Below, piece after piece: positions 9,216 to 57,036 of a stretch of DNA of 64,000 bases (the first letter of the stretch is position 1; every line of letters starts with the position of its first letter). A program made the position numbers and the translations under genes. The stretch comes from Roseburia sp. 831b (GTDB taxonomy: Bacteria > Bacillota > Clostridia > Lachnospirales > Lachnospiraceae): the NCBI RefSeq assembly GCF_001940165.2, contig NZ_CP135162.1, forward strand, positions 361,501-425,500. Reading direction: 5' to 3'. The notes beneath the pieces are model-generated. The model searched no databases and had not been told where the DNA came from. It saw nothing but the letters and a program-made list of their open reading frames with translations.

Positions 9216-9447
9216 GGGGGGCTCATTTTTTTGCTTTATAGGAAATGGCTATGCAATATTTCTTTTTATAAAAGGCATGGAAATAATATTTTTTGTGTAA
9301 AAATAAAGTAAAATTTATGTAAAATCATGGAATCGCAATAGAAATTCTCGGCAAAATAAATCCCATTTTCGAAGAAAATCTTGAATCAGAATCACAGAGA
9401 TGTTACAAAAAAGTGATATATTGACAAAAACGCAGGAGATGATGCAT

Positions 9448-11487
9448 ATGAAAAAAATTTCAACAAAATTACTTAGTATGATTTTGCCGGTTATGGTTTT
9501 GGGGCTGCTATGTCTGGTGGCAATCTGCAGTTTCTTTTCGGTAAGAACAATTGGTGATGAGATATCAGAGCGGATGATGCAGACATTGAAGGCAAATTCG
9601 AATGAGATTTGTGCAAGCATGGAGACTTATGAGAGAGACACGAAGGATGTAGCACTTGCAATCGGACAGACTATTGGAGATGCGCAGGATCTTAGCAAAT
9701 ATGACAACATTATGGAACAGGAAATCACAAACAATGAACTGATTTCCGCAATGGGATTTTTTATTGAACCAGGATACTTTCAGGGAGAACAGAGTGTTTT
9801 TTCATACATGGGAGAGTCCGATGGAAAAGTAAGCAAAGTGGAACTTGGAGATTTTGAATATACAGGGACAGAATGGTACGTTGCAGTAAAGGACACAAAT
9901 ACGTACTATTATACAGACCCATATGTGGATGAAACCTATGGAAAACTCATGATTTCCTATGTAGAACCAATTTATGACCATTCTGGTAAATTTATTGGTG
10001 CGGTAAACACTGATGTGGATATGAGTGGAATCCAGTCACTTGTAGACAATGTCAAGATAGGAGATACCGGAAAAGCGGTATTAATCAATGAGGAAGGTGT
10101 TTATTTAACCAATAGTGATCCGGATAAAGTAACAACGACGAATATTGCAGAAGAAAAGGGAGGTCTCTATAAAGCGGATGCCAAACAGATTCTTGCAAAC
10201 GATTTCGGCAGTTTTTTAAGTAAGAAAGATGGGGTAGCCTACCGAACTTATTTTGAAAAAATACCGGAGTACAACTGGATTTTACTTGTCAGTATGGAAC
10301 GAAGTGAAGTTTCACAATCAATGGAAGGACTTGTGAAATCTTCTATTGTAGTAAGTATTATCACGATTATCGTCTGTGCACTTGTGATTTTCCTTTCAGC
10401 GAAAAAGATTGCAAATTCGATTGCAGAAGTAAAAGATATGTCAAGAAAGATGGCTGGCGGAGATTTCTCCATAGAGCCGATGAAAGTAAAAGGCAAAGAT
10501 GAAGTCGCACAGATGACAGAGGCATTAAATGAAATGCTTTTGTCAAATCGTGATGAGATGCAGCAGATTTCTTACAATTCCAAGACAGTTGGTTTTAACT
10601 GTGATACGTTAAAACAGGCAGTATCTGAATTGGAGGAAAGCTTTGATGAGATTAACCATTCCATTCAGATTATCAGCAGTGCAATGATGGATAACAGTGC
10701 GACAACGGAAGAATTGACCGCTTCTGTCACAGAGGTAAAAGAAACGGTTACCAATCTTGCCAGAAAGGCATCTGAAAGTGAAGAAATGTCTAAGGAAATC
10801 ATGGAACGTGCAAGGATGATTGGAAAAGAGTCGAATGAAAATTTTGACAAGGCAATGGATTTAAGCAAGCAATATGAGAAACGTCTCGAATCAAGTATCG
10901 AGAATTCCAAGGTTGTAAACGAAATCGGAACTATGGCAGATGCTATTTCAGAAATTGCGGAGCAGATTAACCTTTTATCCTTAAATGCGTCCATTGAGGC
11001 TGCAAGAGCAGGAGAACAAGGAAAAGGCTTTGCGGTTGTAGCAGGTGAGATTGGAAATCTTGCAAATCAGACCAGCAATACGGTAACAAGTATTCAGGCT
11101 ACGGTTGCAAAAGTAAAAGAATCGGTGGAAGTATTGTCTTCAGATTCCAAGGCACTGATTGATTTTATTTCCCAAAATGTTACACCGGATTACCGTGCAT
11201 TTGTTGATACGTCCAATCAGTATGAAAATGATGCCAAGAGCATCCAGGACCTTGCAAGTTATCTTGCCGATATTGCTTCCCAGTTAAAGGCAACAATGGA
11301 AGATGTCAATCTTGCAATTCAAAATATTGCGAGTGCCTCCCAGGATGCAGCAGAAAAGAGTACTACTATTTTAGAGAATGTCGATACAGTATCCGACCAT
11401 GTTGAAAATGTAGGGGATATCTCAGAACAGCAAAAAGAGGTTTCCCATACGCTAGATGATGTTGTTGGACGATACAAATTAGAATAG
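9448..11487 (+). CDS. Methyl-accepting chemotaxis protein with extracellular dCache domain
   Basis: A 679-residue chemoreceptor. The ATG at 9448 is preceded by CAGGAG at eight bases and gives a normal TM1 (residues about 8-32). The outer domain has dCache features ('[20 protein letters not shown]', '[13 protein letters not shown]', '[14 protein letters not shown]'), used to sense small molecules such as amino acids. TM2 lies around residues 290-312, followed by a HAMP linker ([20 protein letters not shown]). The signalling hairpin tip '[20 protein letters not shown]' contacts CheA and CheW. The gene is monocistronic and ends at a hairpin terminator. Presence of this receptor implies a chemotaxis system elsewhere in the genome. 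Confidence 0.94.
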
Positions 11488-11590
11488 GAAACAGGATTTA
11501 AGAAATTAGAATATTTTAGGTCAGTTGTCTGTGTTGTAGGAAGACATGTTTCCTGAATTTTGAAAAGTTAAAAGTTAAAAGTGTGAGAAG

Positions 11591-11669
11591 ACCGCCAGAG
11601 TGTGTAAGCTGCTGTTGGACTGTTAACATATTTTCAGTTTTGCAGGAATAGCACATTGCTGGCGGTTTT
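11591..11669 (+). terminator. Possible terminator after the chemoreceptor gene
   Basis: ACCGCCAG (11591-11598) can pair with CTGGCGGT (11659-11666), followed by TTT. The loop is long (about 60 nt), so termination efficiency is uncertain. Confidence 0.45.
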
Positions 11670-11680
11670 GCAGTTAAAAA

Positions 11681-12045
11681 ATATCAAATTTTTAGTAATA
11701 TCAAAAATCATATCTGGTTGGAAGAAGCATCAAAACTCAGGAAATATCACGAATGATATCTGGTTGGAAGAAGCATCAAAACTCAGGAAATATCAAAAAT
11801 CATACCTAGTTGGACAAAGTATCAAAACCCAGGAAATATCACGAATGATATCTGGTTGGAAAAAGTATCAAATTTCAGGAAATATCACGAATGATATCTA
11901 GTTGGAAGAAGCATCAAAACCCAGGAAATATTACGAATGATATCTGGTTAGCAAAAGTATCAAAACTCAGGAAATATCACGAATGATATCTGGTTAGCAA
12001 AAATATCAAATTCTAGGAAGTATCACAAATTATATCTGATTGGAC
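11681..12045. repeat. 46-bp tandem repeat array (about 8 units)
   Basis: Units start at 11694, 11740, 11786, 11832, 11878, 11924, 11970 and 12016, exactly 46 bp apart, preceded by a partial unit. The consensus begins GGAAATATCACGAATGATAT and continues CTGGTTGGAAGAAGCATC plus AAAACYCA. Each unit carries an ATATC-N6-GATAT dyad, intact in most copies. Forty-six is not a multiple of three, so the array is not coding. The last unit diverges after TTGGA and merges into the dispersed element that follows. Confidence 0.93.
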
Positions 12046-12255
12046 AATAGGAACCTATATTTTCAAAATTATCCAAAATGGCATGAAAAACATGTTGTTA
12101 TGTAAACCAATATAATCGTTTTTTACAAGGACATTGCATTCATTAAAAATTTGTAAAAAATTTCTTGAAAAAGGAGTCTATTTTGGACAATTTCTTAATT
12201 ATTTTCTTCTATTGTAAAATGATGCATATTATGTAAACTAAGAGCAATCAAAATC
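12027..12255 (+). repeat. Dispersed non-coding element, copy A
   Basis: This stretch is matched, in inverted orientation, by 49583-49821. Shared landmarks in order are AATTATA then TTGGACAAT, GGACAAT 67 bp before the end of TTATGTAAACC (both copies exactly 67), a TTTTACAA segment, a central hairpin of the form ATTTGT…ACAAT, a second TTATGTAAAC box 131 bp after the first (132 in copy B), and AATCAAAATC near the end. Boxes here are at 12098-12108 and 12229-12239. No open frame of note is present. Confidence 0.72.
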
Positions 12256-12263
12256 AAGGGAAA

Positions 12264-12300
12264 TTGGATAAAAAATCACAAATTAGATTCATTTATCCAA
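12264..12300. other. Inverted repeat in repeat-rich intergenic region
   Basis: TTGGATAAA (12264-12272) and TTTATCCAA (12292-12300) are perfect 9-bp inverse arms around 19 nt. Nothing else recognisable was seen from here to 12476 except AT-rich sequence. Confidence 0.6.
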
Positions 12301-12476
12301 ACCATGTCAAGATTAGTAATATAGTCCTATTAGATGAAGTGCCAGGCTCAAAGTGGAAATTGAAAAAGCGGGAGATAGGAAGCAAGGTTCATAAAAAAGA
12401 TATTTAAGAAAAAACGCATGGGAAAAGGTATCAAAATAGGCTCATAAGGGATATCTAGAAAAACGATATAAGAAAT

Positions 12477-12562
12477 GACACAAAAAAATGCCCCAAAAGA
12501 AAAAGACACAAAAAAATGCCCCAAAAGAAAAAGACACAAAAAATGACACACAAGAAAATGAC
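12477..12562. repeat. 28-bp tandem repeat, three copies (the last degenerate)
   Basis: Units begin GACACAAAAAAATGCCCC at 12477 and 12505 (identical), with a degenerate third from 12533 in which TGACACACAAG replaces the CCCC part. Very purine-rich on the + strand. No coding potential is apparent. Confidence 0.85.
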
Positions 12563-12711
12563 ATAAAAAATCCCTTGACAAAAAGACAATTCTTGACAGA
12601 TAATAAAGTATCATTTCAAGAAAGTTCAATGGAATCATTCATGTAGCAATACATGGTCAAATTTATCCCAAGTCAAATTATGTTTTACACGAAAGCCAGC
12701 CAGGTCACAGG

Positions 12712-12878
12712 TTTAGAAATTTGTAAGACAAATCCAATTTAGAAAATTATAAGACAAATCCAGCCAGAAATCCAATTTAGAAAATTATAAGACAAAATCA
12801 GCCAGGAACCAGGTTGAGAAAATTGTAAGACAAATCCAGCCTCCAAACCACCTAAGAAAGTATATAAGACGAAAACAA
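12712..12878. repeat. 38-bp repeat array directly before the nuclease-like gene
   Basis: The core TAAGACAAATCC recurs with its AAGAC at 12725, 12751, 12789, 12827 and 12866 (spacings 26, 38, 38, 39). Units read TTTAGAAAATTATAAGAC then AAATCCAGCCAG. The first copy contains a perfect dyad ATTTGT-AAG-ACAAAT (12719-12733), partly kept in later copies. The array ends at the beginning of the next gene. Confidence 0.85.
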
Positions 12879-12880
12879 TC

Positions 12881-13735
12881 GTGCTCCGCCAAGAGAGTTA
12901 CAGTACAAAAGCCAGCAACAGCTATCCATCATCTATAAGAAAAAGGAGGTACTTGTATACGGTATACAATAATTTGAAAAAGGAGCTTGCTGTACTAGAG
13001 CAGGAAATCCAAAGCTTGCAACAGGAAATAGAGAAGCTTCCAGAAGGAAAGTTACTTTGTGTGCAAAATGGAGCCTATGTGAAGTGGTATAAGAGCAATG
13101 GCGCACATCCAATTTATATTAAGAAAAGTGAAGAAGAATATGCGAAAAAACTGGCAATCAAAAAATATAACAGTTATCGCCTGGAAGAATTGAAAGGGAA
13201 GTATTTATTACTGAAAAAATATGCTGACCTCTATGAAAAGGAAAAAGAAAAATCAAAAGATTTGGTGGAACAGAATCCGGCATATGCTTCTCTTTTAGCG
13301 GATTATTTTAAGGATACGCAGGATCAATCAAATAGCTGGCAGGAGGAGCCGTATCCACACAACACGAAATATAAGGAAAATATAATATATAAGACGCTTG
13401 CAGGGCATATGGTTCGTTCCAAATCCGAGGTTTTAATTGCAAATGCCTTATTTTTAAATGGGATTCCATATCGTTATGAGTGTGCATTACGACTTGAGGG
13501 ATTTACATTGTACCCGGATTTTACGATTAGACATCCAAAAACGAAACAGATATATTATTGGGAGCATTTTGGAATGGCAGACAAATTGGAGTATCAGGAC
13601 AGGATGACAGAGAAACTAAAGCTCTATCTGCGAAATGGAATCATTCCAACGATTGACCTTATTTTAAGTTATGAGACGTCGAAGACCCCGCTTGATATCG
13701 AAAAAATAGAATGGTTGATACGAGAATACTTTTAA
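12881..13735 (+). CDS. Orphan protein with a PD-(D/E)XK nuclease-like C-terminal domain
   Basis: I do not recognise a named gene. As drawn from the GTG at 12881 it has 284 residues; a TTG at 12953, close behind an AGGAGG (12944-12949), is an alternative start giving 260 residues. Residues about 30-56 form a short coiled coil (KKELAVLEQEIQSLQQEIEK). Residues about 176-256 resemble the restriction-endonuclease-like core: 'MVRSKSEVLIANALFLNGIP' with E183, 'LYPDFTI' with D213, and 'IYYWEHFGM' with E228. The usual E-x-K lysine is not obvious; H229 takes a nearby place. Such domains occur alone or fused to helicases in Firmicutes. It stands alone behind three tandem-repeat families. Confidence 0.62.
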   Translation: MLRQESYSTKASNSYPSSIRKRRYLYTVYNNLKKELAVLEQEIQSLQQEIEKLPEGKLLCVQNGAYVKWYKSNGAHPIYIKKSEEEYAKKLAIKKYNSYRLEELKGKYLLLKKYADLYEKEKEKSKDLVEQNPAYASLLADYFKDTQDQSNSWQEEPYPHNTKYKENIIYKTLAGHMVRSKSEVLIANALFLNGIPYRYECALRLEGFTLYPDFTIRHPKTKQIYYWEHFGMADKLEYQDRMTEKLKLYLRNGIIPTIDLILSYETSKTPLDIEKIEWLIREYF

Positions 13736-13843: not shown

Positions 13844-16294
13844 TTAACCCATTACAACCTTAACTTGAACAGAATCTTTACCATGATTTAATGGAATCAT
13901 GTTGCCGGCTACTTCTTTGCCATCAACGGTCATGGAAGCAACGCCTTTTTCCACATGGTTTGGATTCTCAACGGTGATGTGGTAAGTGACACCACGGAAA
14001 TCACGTTTTGCAGTAAATCCATCTAAAGTGGATGGAATACATGGATCAATGACAAGACCATCGTAGTCCGGGCGGATTCCTAAGATGTACTGTGAAACAT
14101 CAAGGAAAGTCCATGCTGCAGTACCGGTTAACCAGCTGTTTTTCGCTTCACCGAAGTTTGGAGCATCTTTTCCGGCAATCATCTGTGAGTATACATAAGG
14201 TTCTGTACGGTGAATTTCGCTAATATCCTCGATATAAGCAGGACAAGTTCTGGTGTATACCTGCCAAGCACGGTTTCCGCGTCCGACAACAGTCTCTGCG
14301 ATAGAAATCCATGGGTTGTTGTGGCAGAAGATACCGGCATTTTCCTTATATCCAGGTGGATAAGAGGAGATTTCACCAAGTTCAACGTGATATTTATGAT
14401 AAGGTGGCTGTAATAATACAATGCCGTACTTGGTATCTAAGTATTTTTCGACAGACTGTAAAGCCTGTAAACATTTGCCTTCTTTTAAACCAATCTCTGC
14501 GATAACACAGAATCCCTGAGGTTCGATAAAAATCTTACCGTCTTCACATTCCTTAGAACCAATTTTGTGTTTGTAGTGGTCGTAAGCACGTAAATACCAT
14601 TCGCCATCCCAGCCGGCATCCAATACCGTTTTTTCCATGGAAGCGATTGCTTTTTCCGCTTCTTCGGCTTCCTCGTTCAATCCGCGGTGTCTGCAAATTG
14701 CTGCGTAATCTTTTCCATATTTTACAAACATACCTGCAATGAATACGGACTCAGCATTTGGTCCCTCGGATGGACCGAAAGTCTGGAAAGATTCACCCGG
14801 TTCTTCGGAGAAGCAGTTTAGGTTCAGACAGTCATTCCAGTCAGCACGACCGATTAATGGAAGTCCGTGAGGTCCAAGATGTTCGATGGTGTAACGGAAA
14901 GAACGTCTTAGGTGTTCCATAAAATCAGTAGCTTTGCTCATATCGCTGTCGTATGCAGTCATTTCATCTAAGATGGTGTAATCGCCGGTCTCTTTGATAT
15001 AGGCAGCAGCAGCGGCAATCAGCCACAATGGATCATCGTTAAAACCACTTCCGATATCGGAGTTTCCTTTTTTGGTCAGTGGCTGGTACTGGTGATAAGC
15101 ACTGCCATCCTCAAACTGGGTTGCGGCAATATCTAAGATACGTTCACGTGCACGGTCAGGAATCAAATGAACAAATCCTAATAAATCCTGACAAGAGTCA
15201 CGGAATCCCATTCCACGTCCGATTCCAGATTCAAAATAAGAAGCAGAACGGCTCATGTTAAAGGTAACCATACACTGGTACTGGTGCCATACATTTACCA
15301 TACGGTCCAGTTTCTTTTCGGAAGAGGAGATGGTAAAGTGATTTAATAAAGAATCCCAATATTCTTTTAAGTCTGCAAGAGCTTTGTCTGTTTTCTCAAC
15401 CGTGTCAAACTGTGCAAGCATTTTTTTTGCAGGAGCACGGTTGATGACGCCATTTTCAGCAGGGCCAACCCATTTTTCTTCGACTGGATTTTCGACATAA
15501 CCCAATACGAAAATATAGGTTTTGGATTCTCCCGGTGCAAGAGAAACTTCCAAATGGTGGGAACCGATAGGAGCCCATCCACTTGCAACCGAGTTTTTGG
15601 ATGTTCCGGTTGTCACAACTTCCGGTGCAGAGTTCTCACCGTAAGCACCCAGGAAGGAATCGCGGTCTGTATCAAATCCTGCAACCGATGCGTTCACCGC
15701 ATAAACGGCATAATGGTTACGGCGCTCTCTGTATTCGGTTTTATGGTAAAGTTCAGAACCGTCTGCATGAATCTCAACTTCCCCTGTTGAAAAGTTTCTC
15801 TGGAAGTTGGTCATATCGTCCATTGCATTCCAGAGACAGAACTCTACATAGGAAAAAACAGAGAAGTTCTTTTCTGTGTCGCTCTCATTGGTGAGGGTTA
15901 ATTTGTTGACCTCACAGGTAGAACCCATAGGAACAAAATCAGTAAGGGATGCTTTTAATCCATTTTTGCTTCCTGTAAAAACGGAATATCCCATACCATG
16001 ACGGCATTCGTAGGAATCCAGTTCAGTTTTAGAAGGCATCCAGCCAGGATTCCAGACGGTATTTCCATCTTTAATATAGTAGTAATGTCCGTTACTGTCA
16101 TAAGGCACGTTGTTGTAACGGTATCTGGTCAGACGCAATAATTTTGCATCCTTATAAAAGCTGTATCCGCCACAGGTATTTGAAACGAGTGAGAAGAAGT
16201 TCTCGCATCCCAAATAGTTAATCCATGGCAATGGTGTTTTTGGTGATGTGATGACATATTCCTTGTTGGCATCATCAAAGTATCCAAATTTCAT
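13844..16294 (-). CDS. Cellobiose phosphorylase (glycoside hydrolase family 94)
   Basis: A full-length 816-residue cytoplasmic enzyme of the size of known cellobiose phosphorylases. It splits cellobiose with phosphate into glucose 1-phosphate and glucose, saving ATP. The N-terminal beta-sandwich begins '[20 protein letters not shown]'. The (alpha/alpha)6 catalytic barrel contains '[14 protein letters not shown]', whose second Asp (about residue 488) corresponds to the general acid of the family, and '[18 protein letters not shown]', the substrate/phosphate region. Specificity for cellobiose over chitobiose is inferred from overall likeness. It is divergent from the LacI gene and ABC importer, with a strong GGAGGAAA site and its own promoter. 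Confidence 0.92.
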
Positions 16295-56708: not shown

Positions 56709-57036
56709 AAAATAGGATTCGGGTGTCAAAAGGCAGCTTACAGTTTTCTTGTTGGCAAATTGTACAAGGGCTGGACTCTTTTGTTCCGATGAGTAAACAT
56801 AAGAAAAGTCTAAGTATGCCTAATGAAGATTATTATGAAAAGACGTGACCGGCATTCAATGAACCGTCCATGGTTCATGAAGCCTTGTTCTGCCATCCAT
56901 GGCAGAACATCACTGGGTACCTTGAGGCATACTAAGATTTTCTAATGTTTTCTCAAAGTCACGAAAAGAGTCCAGCCCTTGTGCAATTTGCCAGCAACTA
57001 ATTTGTGTGCTGCCTTTTGGCACCCGAATCCTATTT
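56709..57036. repeat. 328-bp long inverted-repeat element (MITE-like)
   Basis: The outer ends AATAGGATTCGGGTG…CAAAAGGCAGC and their inverse GCTGCCTTTTGGCACCCG…AATCCTATT match over about 27 bases with one mismatch. The inverted likeness continues inward with gaps (ACAAGGGCTGGACTCTTTT against AAAAGAGTCCAGCCCTTGT; AGTCTAAGTATGCC against GGCATACTAAGATT). Two small hairpins sit in the middle (GAACCGTCC… and GTTCTGCCATCC…GGCAGAAC). No transposase frame is inside. A degenerate relative lies at 50961-51100. Confidence 0.85.

Follow-up and report, generated by a model that had tools for sequence, protein, structure and literature searches.

The question raised by this locus is whether a gene for a small nuclease-like protein and the repeats in front of it belong together. 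The stretch of DNA analysed (hereafter the window; 64,000 nucleotides of Roseburia sp. 831b, GCF_001940165.2, NZ_CP135162.1, positions 361,501-425,500 of the forward strand) contains an intergenic gap, 11488-12952, in which Tandem Repeats Finder (TRF) detected three tandem arrays with periods of 46, 28 and 38 bp, followed by the nuclease-like gene. A preliminary description of this DNA had suggested a candidate undescribed repeat-plus-nuclease locus in which the protein, or a partner, may read one of the arrays. This suggestion is well supported for the family to which the protein belongs, in that a 7-bp motif is enriched beside many of the genes, its copies have a common pair geometry, the motif follows the protein, and dispersed copies in some genomes coincide with a nuclease of the same motif; the support is weaker for the arrays of the window itself.

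The gene comes from a large family of gut-bacterial proteins that are small, nuclease-like and so far uncharacterised, and 2531 relatives of the window protein were recovered. At 79 loci, taken from named genomes among the 80 top-ranking of 518 confirmed matches, TRF arrays within 1.5 kb of the nuclease gene were present upstream in 28 cases and downstream in 37, so that the arrays do not keep to one constant side of the homologues. As there was no upstream rule, we switched to motif counts, in which the commonest 7-mer of the intergenic flanks, counted over both strands, was compared with 40 shuffles. The input consisted of these 79 loci and the 40 best-scoring places, outside the genome of the window, from an even draw over the genera of the bacterial family (150 genomes); 115 of these 119 had enough gap, and 108 were left after removal of 7 duplicates. 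In the even draw, at most 52 of the 150 genomes had a match, which in some of them was no more than a fragment, or the C-terminal domain alone within a long frame (G121, G174).

A 7-mer more frequent than in every shuffle was found at 61 of the 108 nuclease loci, compared to 15 of 141 control gaps, and the excess came with at least two copies per strand at 50 nuclease loci and in 9 control gaps. The difference persisted when gaps of similar length were compared (34/54 against 7/48 for 600-1000 bp and 11/31 against 8/92 for 300-600 bp), and the even draw alone gave 18 of 32. Part of the control positives were extra copies of the motif of the adjacent nuclease (TGTCCAA at L020 and TACCCAA at L021). 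The top motif varied over the 50 loci (TGTCCAA, ATGCCCA, ATACCCA, AGACCCC, TGCCTAA, AACCGTA, AAGCATC, GCTGAAT and others), and motif similarity tracked protein identity with a Mantel r of 0.395 that was reached in 0 of 2000 permutations. A single broad motif class was rejected as a family-wide marker, since it occurred at background level in the 150 genomes with or without the gene.

The copies of these motifs are arranged in a regular manner. Of 242 spacings between neighbouring inverted copies, 112 fell in the range of 28-32 bp, and such spacings were present at 34 of the 50 loci. The distances between same-strand copies peaked at 52, 72 and 82 bp, and their 61 distinct values were phased at 10.4 bp (Rayleigh R 0.64, p about 1e-11); for inverted copies further apart than 34 bp the phasing was weak (R 0.26, p 0.03). 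For the listed subset of dispersed palindromes, with the clusters at nuclease loci excluded, R was 0.78 at 10.25 bp (44 distinct values from 8 genomes), a value matched by 0 of 1000 uniform sets; it was 0.745 (16 values) when genomes G061 and G074 were also excluded, and 0.89 for 24 successive distances in G061 alone. The pair layout is thus stepped at multiples of about 10.3 bp, i.e. one turn of DNA. Pairing inside the half-sites was not above that of permuted arms (107 palindromes, from loci with at least two), a limited test as arms from the same locus are related. The phasing, together with the outcome of this limited test, suggests proteins lined up along one side of the DNA duplex rather than hairpins.

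In order to follow the pairs beyond the gene flanks, exact patterns were counted in 28 genomes, of which those with dispersal had been chosen partly for their motif; controls with reversed patterns gave 0 or 1. TTGGACA-N21-26-TGTCCAA occurred 163 times in G061 and 0-8 times in the other genomes, TGGGCAT-N21-24-ATGCCCA 52 times in G074 (0-10 elsewhere) and TGGGTAT-N20-24-ATACCCA 28 times in G074 (0-12 elsewhere); a distinct nuclease gene adjoins each of the two repeat families of G074. Nucleases were searched in 15 of the 28 genomes, picked for pairs or motif flanks, and flanks were read for 44 of 52 matches, the remaining 8 being duplicates, fragments or additional pieces of a single gene. Among the resulting cells (3 motifs in 15 genomes), a nuclease flank with at least three half-sites was present in 14 of the 17 with at least three distant pairs and in 3 of the 28 others (p 2e-6). 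The latter three, two motifs in G073 and one in G083, have the matching flank only.

The ATGCCCA family of G074 is an element of about 237 bp with four palindromes. Of 17 aligned copies, 15 lie outside open reading frames (ORFs) of at least 120 codons, and one is located immediately upstream of a nuclease gene. Half-site columns were 0.972 identical between copies, compared to 0.753 for the other columns; when one perfect pair per copy was dropped, which offsets the bias from finding the copies, the match to the consensus was 0.975 for half-sites and 0.840 for spacers. In G061, three clusters and the gene flank have the half-sites in common and otherwise only 41-67 bp of alignable sequence, so that the sites seem to outlast the copies. 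No target duplications around the G074 element were evident by eye in the 17-copy alignment, and when a 5.2-kb query covering two copies was compared with 41 genomes sampled as the genus of G074, single flanks matched in some of them and no empty site with both flanks joined was listed. Identical copies were rejected as a sign of recent transposition, since both pairs, L070/L072 and L245/L246, show complete or 99.9% identity across nearly the whole fetched stretch and are therefore uninformative. On contig JAGAQI010000047.1, L070 and L072 lie in inverted stretches of 10.8 kb that are 100% identical, nuclease gene included, which is either a large duplication or an assembly artefact. In G074 (C15, L143:3873-4367), several four-palindrome copies are contained in a longer repeat (about 0.5 kb) with a 55-bp inverted repeat at its ends, and this end sequence also matches one place in G267. 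A number of nuclease genes were found within a few hundred bases of contig ends, e.g. G095:C103, G172:C40, G107:C4 and G144:C46, as would be expected if dispersed repeats break the assembly.

The window protein was not assigned to any Pfam family. Its structure model predicts an N-terminal helical hairpin and beta hairpin, followed by a C-terminal restriction-endonuclease-like fold that resembles the homing endonuclease I-Bth0305I, and nuclease-like residues are invariant across 93 homologues. Profile searches with the gene and its relatives were used to judge a CRISPR-like or iteron-replicon identity, which was rejected as no such protein stood out; there were weak single matches to Cas13b and Cas12a among 28 family members. 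The gene probably starts at 12953 and not at 12881 as initially described, judging from the two closest homologues (P0004 and P0005), which begin at the codon matching this TTG, and from the AGGAGG just upstream. With this start, the last array stops about 80 bp ahead of the gene instead of running up to it. No conserved neighbour gene was found at 112 loci when two ORFs of at least 120 codons per side were considered, the largest family being present at 6, and all four combinations of neighbour orientation were seen. Homologous sequence flanked the gene on both sides at 16 of 78 loci, compared to 2 of 127 shifted controls, and the best match between the flanks was direct in 12 of the 16. An origin as phage or plasmid cargo was considered and rejected: viral contigs gave 9 loci with a match to the C-terminal domain only, none of 8 plasmid records covered 80% of the query, and one of 3 phage records covered 88% of it. 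Among the eight plasmid matches to the C-terminal domain, seven carry a helicase or AAA ATPase annotation.

The arrays of the window are genuine and far beyond chance, since the top TRF score in 200 Markov shuffles of the gap was 68, with 13 of the 200 reaching at least 50, whereas the observed scores were 463, 147 and 166. The preliminary description was thus right about the three array families and about the lack of a plausible gene between them; a scan of the gap with Rfam matched zero families. Its dyad in the 46-bp units is also real, with the inverted half-sites ATATCA-N4-TGATAT (that is, ATATC-N6-GATAT) being exact at four places. The dyad ATTTGT-AAG-ACAAAT, however, which had been ascribed to every unit of the 38-bp array, is intact in one unit only (12719-12733), the remaining units reading ATTATAAGACAAA or ATTGTAAGACAAAT.

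Table 1 Features of the repeat-bearing gap and its surroundings, in positions of the window.
Feature	Position	Strand	Basis and details
Chemoreceptor gene, flanking the gap	9400-11487		
46-bp tandem array	11697-12044	none	TRF: 7.6 copies, 0% indels, score 463
28-bp tandem array, AT-rich	12473-12570	none	TRF: 3.5 copies, score 147
26-bp pair opening the 38-bp array (together 12712-12870)	12712-12762	none	TRF
38-bp tandem array	12730-12870	none	TRF: 2.9-3.7 copies, scores 166 and 134
Likely ribosome-binding site (AGGAGG) ahead of the nuclease-like gene	12944-12949	+	Sequence
Gene for a stand-alone PD-(D/E)XK-like fold protein, 260 aa, TTG start	12953-13735	+	Homologues, structure model
GH94 enzyme gene, convergent neighbour of the nuclease-like gene	13844-16294		

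Elsewhere in the window, a full-length TwoAYGGAY RNA (RF01731) was matched at 56788-56957 on the minus strand with 123 bits.

Besides the window gene, the Roseburia genome carries four further copies. Two of these have one in-frame stop each (G000:C1:181434-182195 and 3069926-3070687), so that copies seem to decay. TRF arrays were present upstream of three paralogues, with periods of 14 and 35 bp, about 20/42 bp and 64 bp, respectively, and the fourth (L012) has upstream AAACAGT half-sites in 28-bp pairs with 72-bp steps. The arrays at these loci are mutually unrelated, except that the 46-bp array had one weak match next to L011 (E 0.09).

Both kinds of counter-evidence named in the preliminary description, homologues in ordinary contexts without arrays and arrays occurring freely without the gene, were partly encountered. 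Forty-seven of the 108 loci had no motif excess, and distant pairs were found without a matching nuclease flank in G070 (ATGCCCA) and in G075 and G076 (ATACCCA); the repeats found away from the gene are otherwise usually in genomes that hold a nuclease of that motif. In the window, the half-sites of the 46-bp array are spaced by 10 and 36 bp, outside the range of 28-32 bp, and the period of this array does not correspond to an integral number of helical turns. The 28-bp and 38-bp arrays have no consistent dyad, and BLAST of the window arrays against their own genome gave weak short matches and zero further copies. The window locus is therefore an atypical member, with local arrays that are tandem and not phased inverted, and its 46-bp array may be a degenerate or differently constructed one.

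Taken over the family, we consider it rather likely that these proteins are nuclease-fold readers with a repeat population of their own, in a layout that is similar to REPIN-RAYT without being a member of it, and the family protein itself probably binds the motif of its locus. Whether its nuclease activity drives the spread of the repeats is more doubtful, and we suggest this tentatively. In this proposal, each family member would read a short half-site of about 7-10 bp peculiar to its own locus, and the repeats would be half-site arrays, typically with inverted pairs 28-32 bp apart on one helix face, leaving room for adjacent protein dimers. If the arrays were occasionally cut or nicked, subsequent repair or recombination would multiply them locally, yielding tandem repeats and like repeats to either side of the gene, and the same process could seed copies elsewhere, as proposed for RAYTs acting on REPINs. 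The whole would then be a selfish system, in which a stand-alone PD-(D/E)XK-fold nuclease, with a specificity diversifying per copy, maintains and spreads phased inverted half-site arrays as a duplex-DNA, non-homologous counterpart of REPIN-RAYT; we regard this as a serious possibility, somewhat short of likely.

The better conservation of half-sites than of spacers, the G061 sites that seem to outlast their copies and a helical phasing that suits a protein-DNA scaffold would also be consistent with a domesticated system, in which the protein, acting as a nucleoid-type protein or an autoregulator, would bind the phased half-sites and thereby organise the chromosome or regulate it, its nuclease being incidental or lost and the arrays being preserved by host use. 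We regard this as unlikely, since the patchy presence of the gene, the in-frame stops in paralogues, the motif differing per copy and the invariant nuclease-like residues are a better fit to a selfish element. Homing-type behaviour, whereby the nuclease gene inserts into arrays that already exist and are read by another protein, because the nuclease cuts there, appears less probable still: although the C-terminal fold is like that of I-Bth0305I and some genes lie between homologous flanks, most dispersed motif families occur together with a nuclease of the same motif, the motif follows the protein, and there is no second conserved gene at the loci.

We give very little weight to an RNA system, in which the array would be transcribed and act as RNA, much as the tandem antitoxin RNA encoded ahead of a type III toxin does. 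Its position upstream of a nuclease-like gene would fit, but arrays are found downstream and far away as well, half-site complementarity did not exceed that of permuted arms in the limited test above, the helical phasing indicates duplex DNA, and neither a type III toxin domain among the Pfam matches nor an Rfam family in the gap was found. It is equally improbable that the arrays are ordinary tandem repeats, common in long AT-rich gaps, with a coincidental neighbour. Such repeats do exist in this genome, as control gaps from a 240-kb sample reached an array score of at least 80 in 7 of 84 cases (gaps of at least 100 bp) and in 4 of 16 cases (at least 400 bp); the same score was, however, reached at 4 of the 5 nuclease loci (3 of 4 without the window, which was itself picked for its arrays), the motif excess persists in both length classes of control gaps, and the pair spacing is common to unrelated motifs.

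To our knowledge, REPIN-RAYT is the known bacterial repeat population that is tied to a gene. The family resembles it in its gene-specific repeat class with inverted doublets in the flanks, at about half of the family loci (in the window there is a dyad in the 46-bp array only, with other spacing), and in its dispersed extragenic copies in several genomes, which the arrays of the window lack. It differs in its PD-(D/E)XK-like protein, with no Y1 (HUH) transposase among the Pfam matches, and in half-sites that are short, helically phased and without extra internal pairing detected in the limited test. For REPIN-RAYT, each gene copy is described with a separate repeat class, inverted doublets, dispersed extragenic copies and repeats co-evolving with the protein (PMC3116915). 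Compared to I-Bth0305I and Vsr-like nucleases, the family genes sit amid many motif copies and have an N-terminal part unmatched to them. Homing genes, for their part, replace one cut site. In contrast to TnsA of Tn7-type elements, the family consists of a single gene with no conserved partner among the neighbouring ORFs. Type III toxin-antitoxin systems (ToxIN, CptIN, TenpIN) have tandem repeats upstream of a nuclease-like gene, as is the case here, but the fold is another one, the family arrays are on both sides and dispersed, and the sites are phased as duplex DNA; no ToxN/CptN/TenpN-type toxin was found among the Pfam matches. The C-terminal domain is shared with the PADLOC candidate defence profiles PDC-S68 and PDC-S69, which all 28 of 28 members matched (best 5e-35); the profiles of PDC-S68 span about 1200 residues and matched at their end only, whereas the family proteins, at about 260 residues, have a short N-terminal part that is peculiar to them. 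A literature search gave no publication linking such a nuclease with such repeats, most subscription journals being beyond its reach.

If the proposal is true, the family would be a second solution that is unrelated to REPIN-RAYT and has a short motif free to change, implying that the arrangement of a gene with its own repeat population evolves repeatedly. It would also help to account for the repeat-rich gaps in genomes of gut Lachnospiraceae. The family offers a natural series of nuclease-fold proteins along with their probable target motifs, in which a change of specificity is directly testable.
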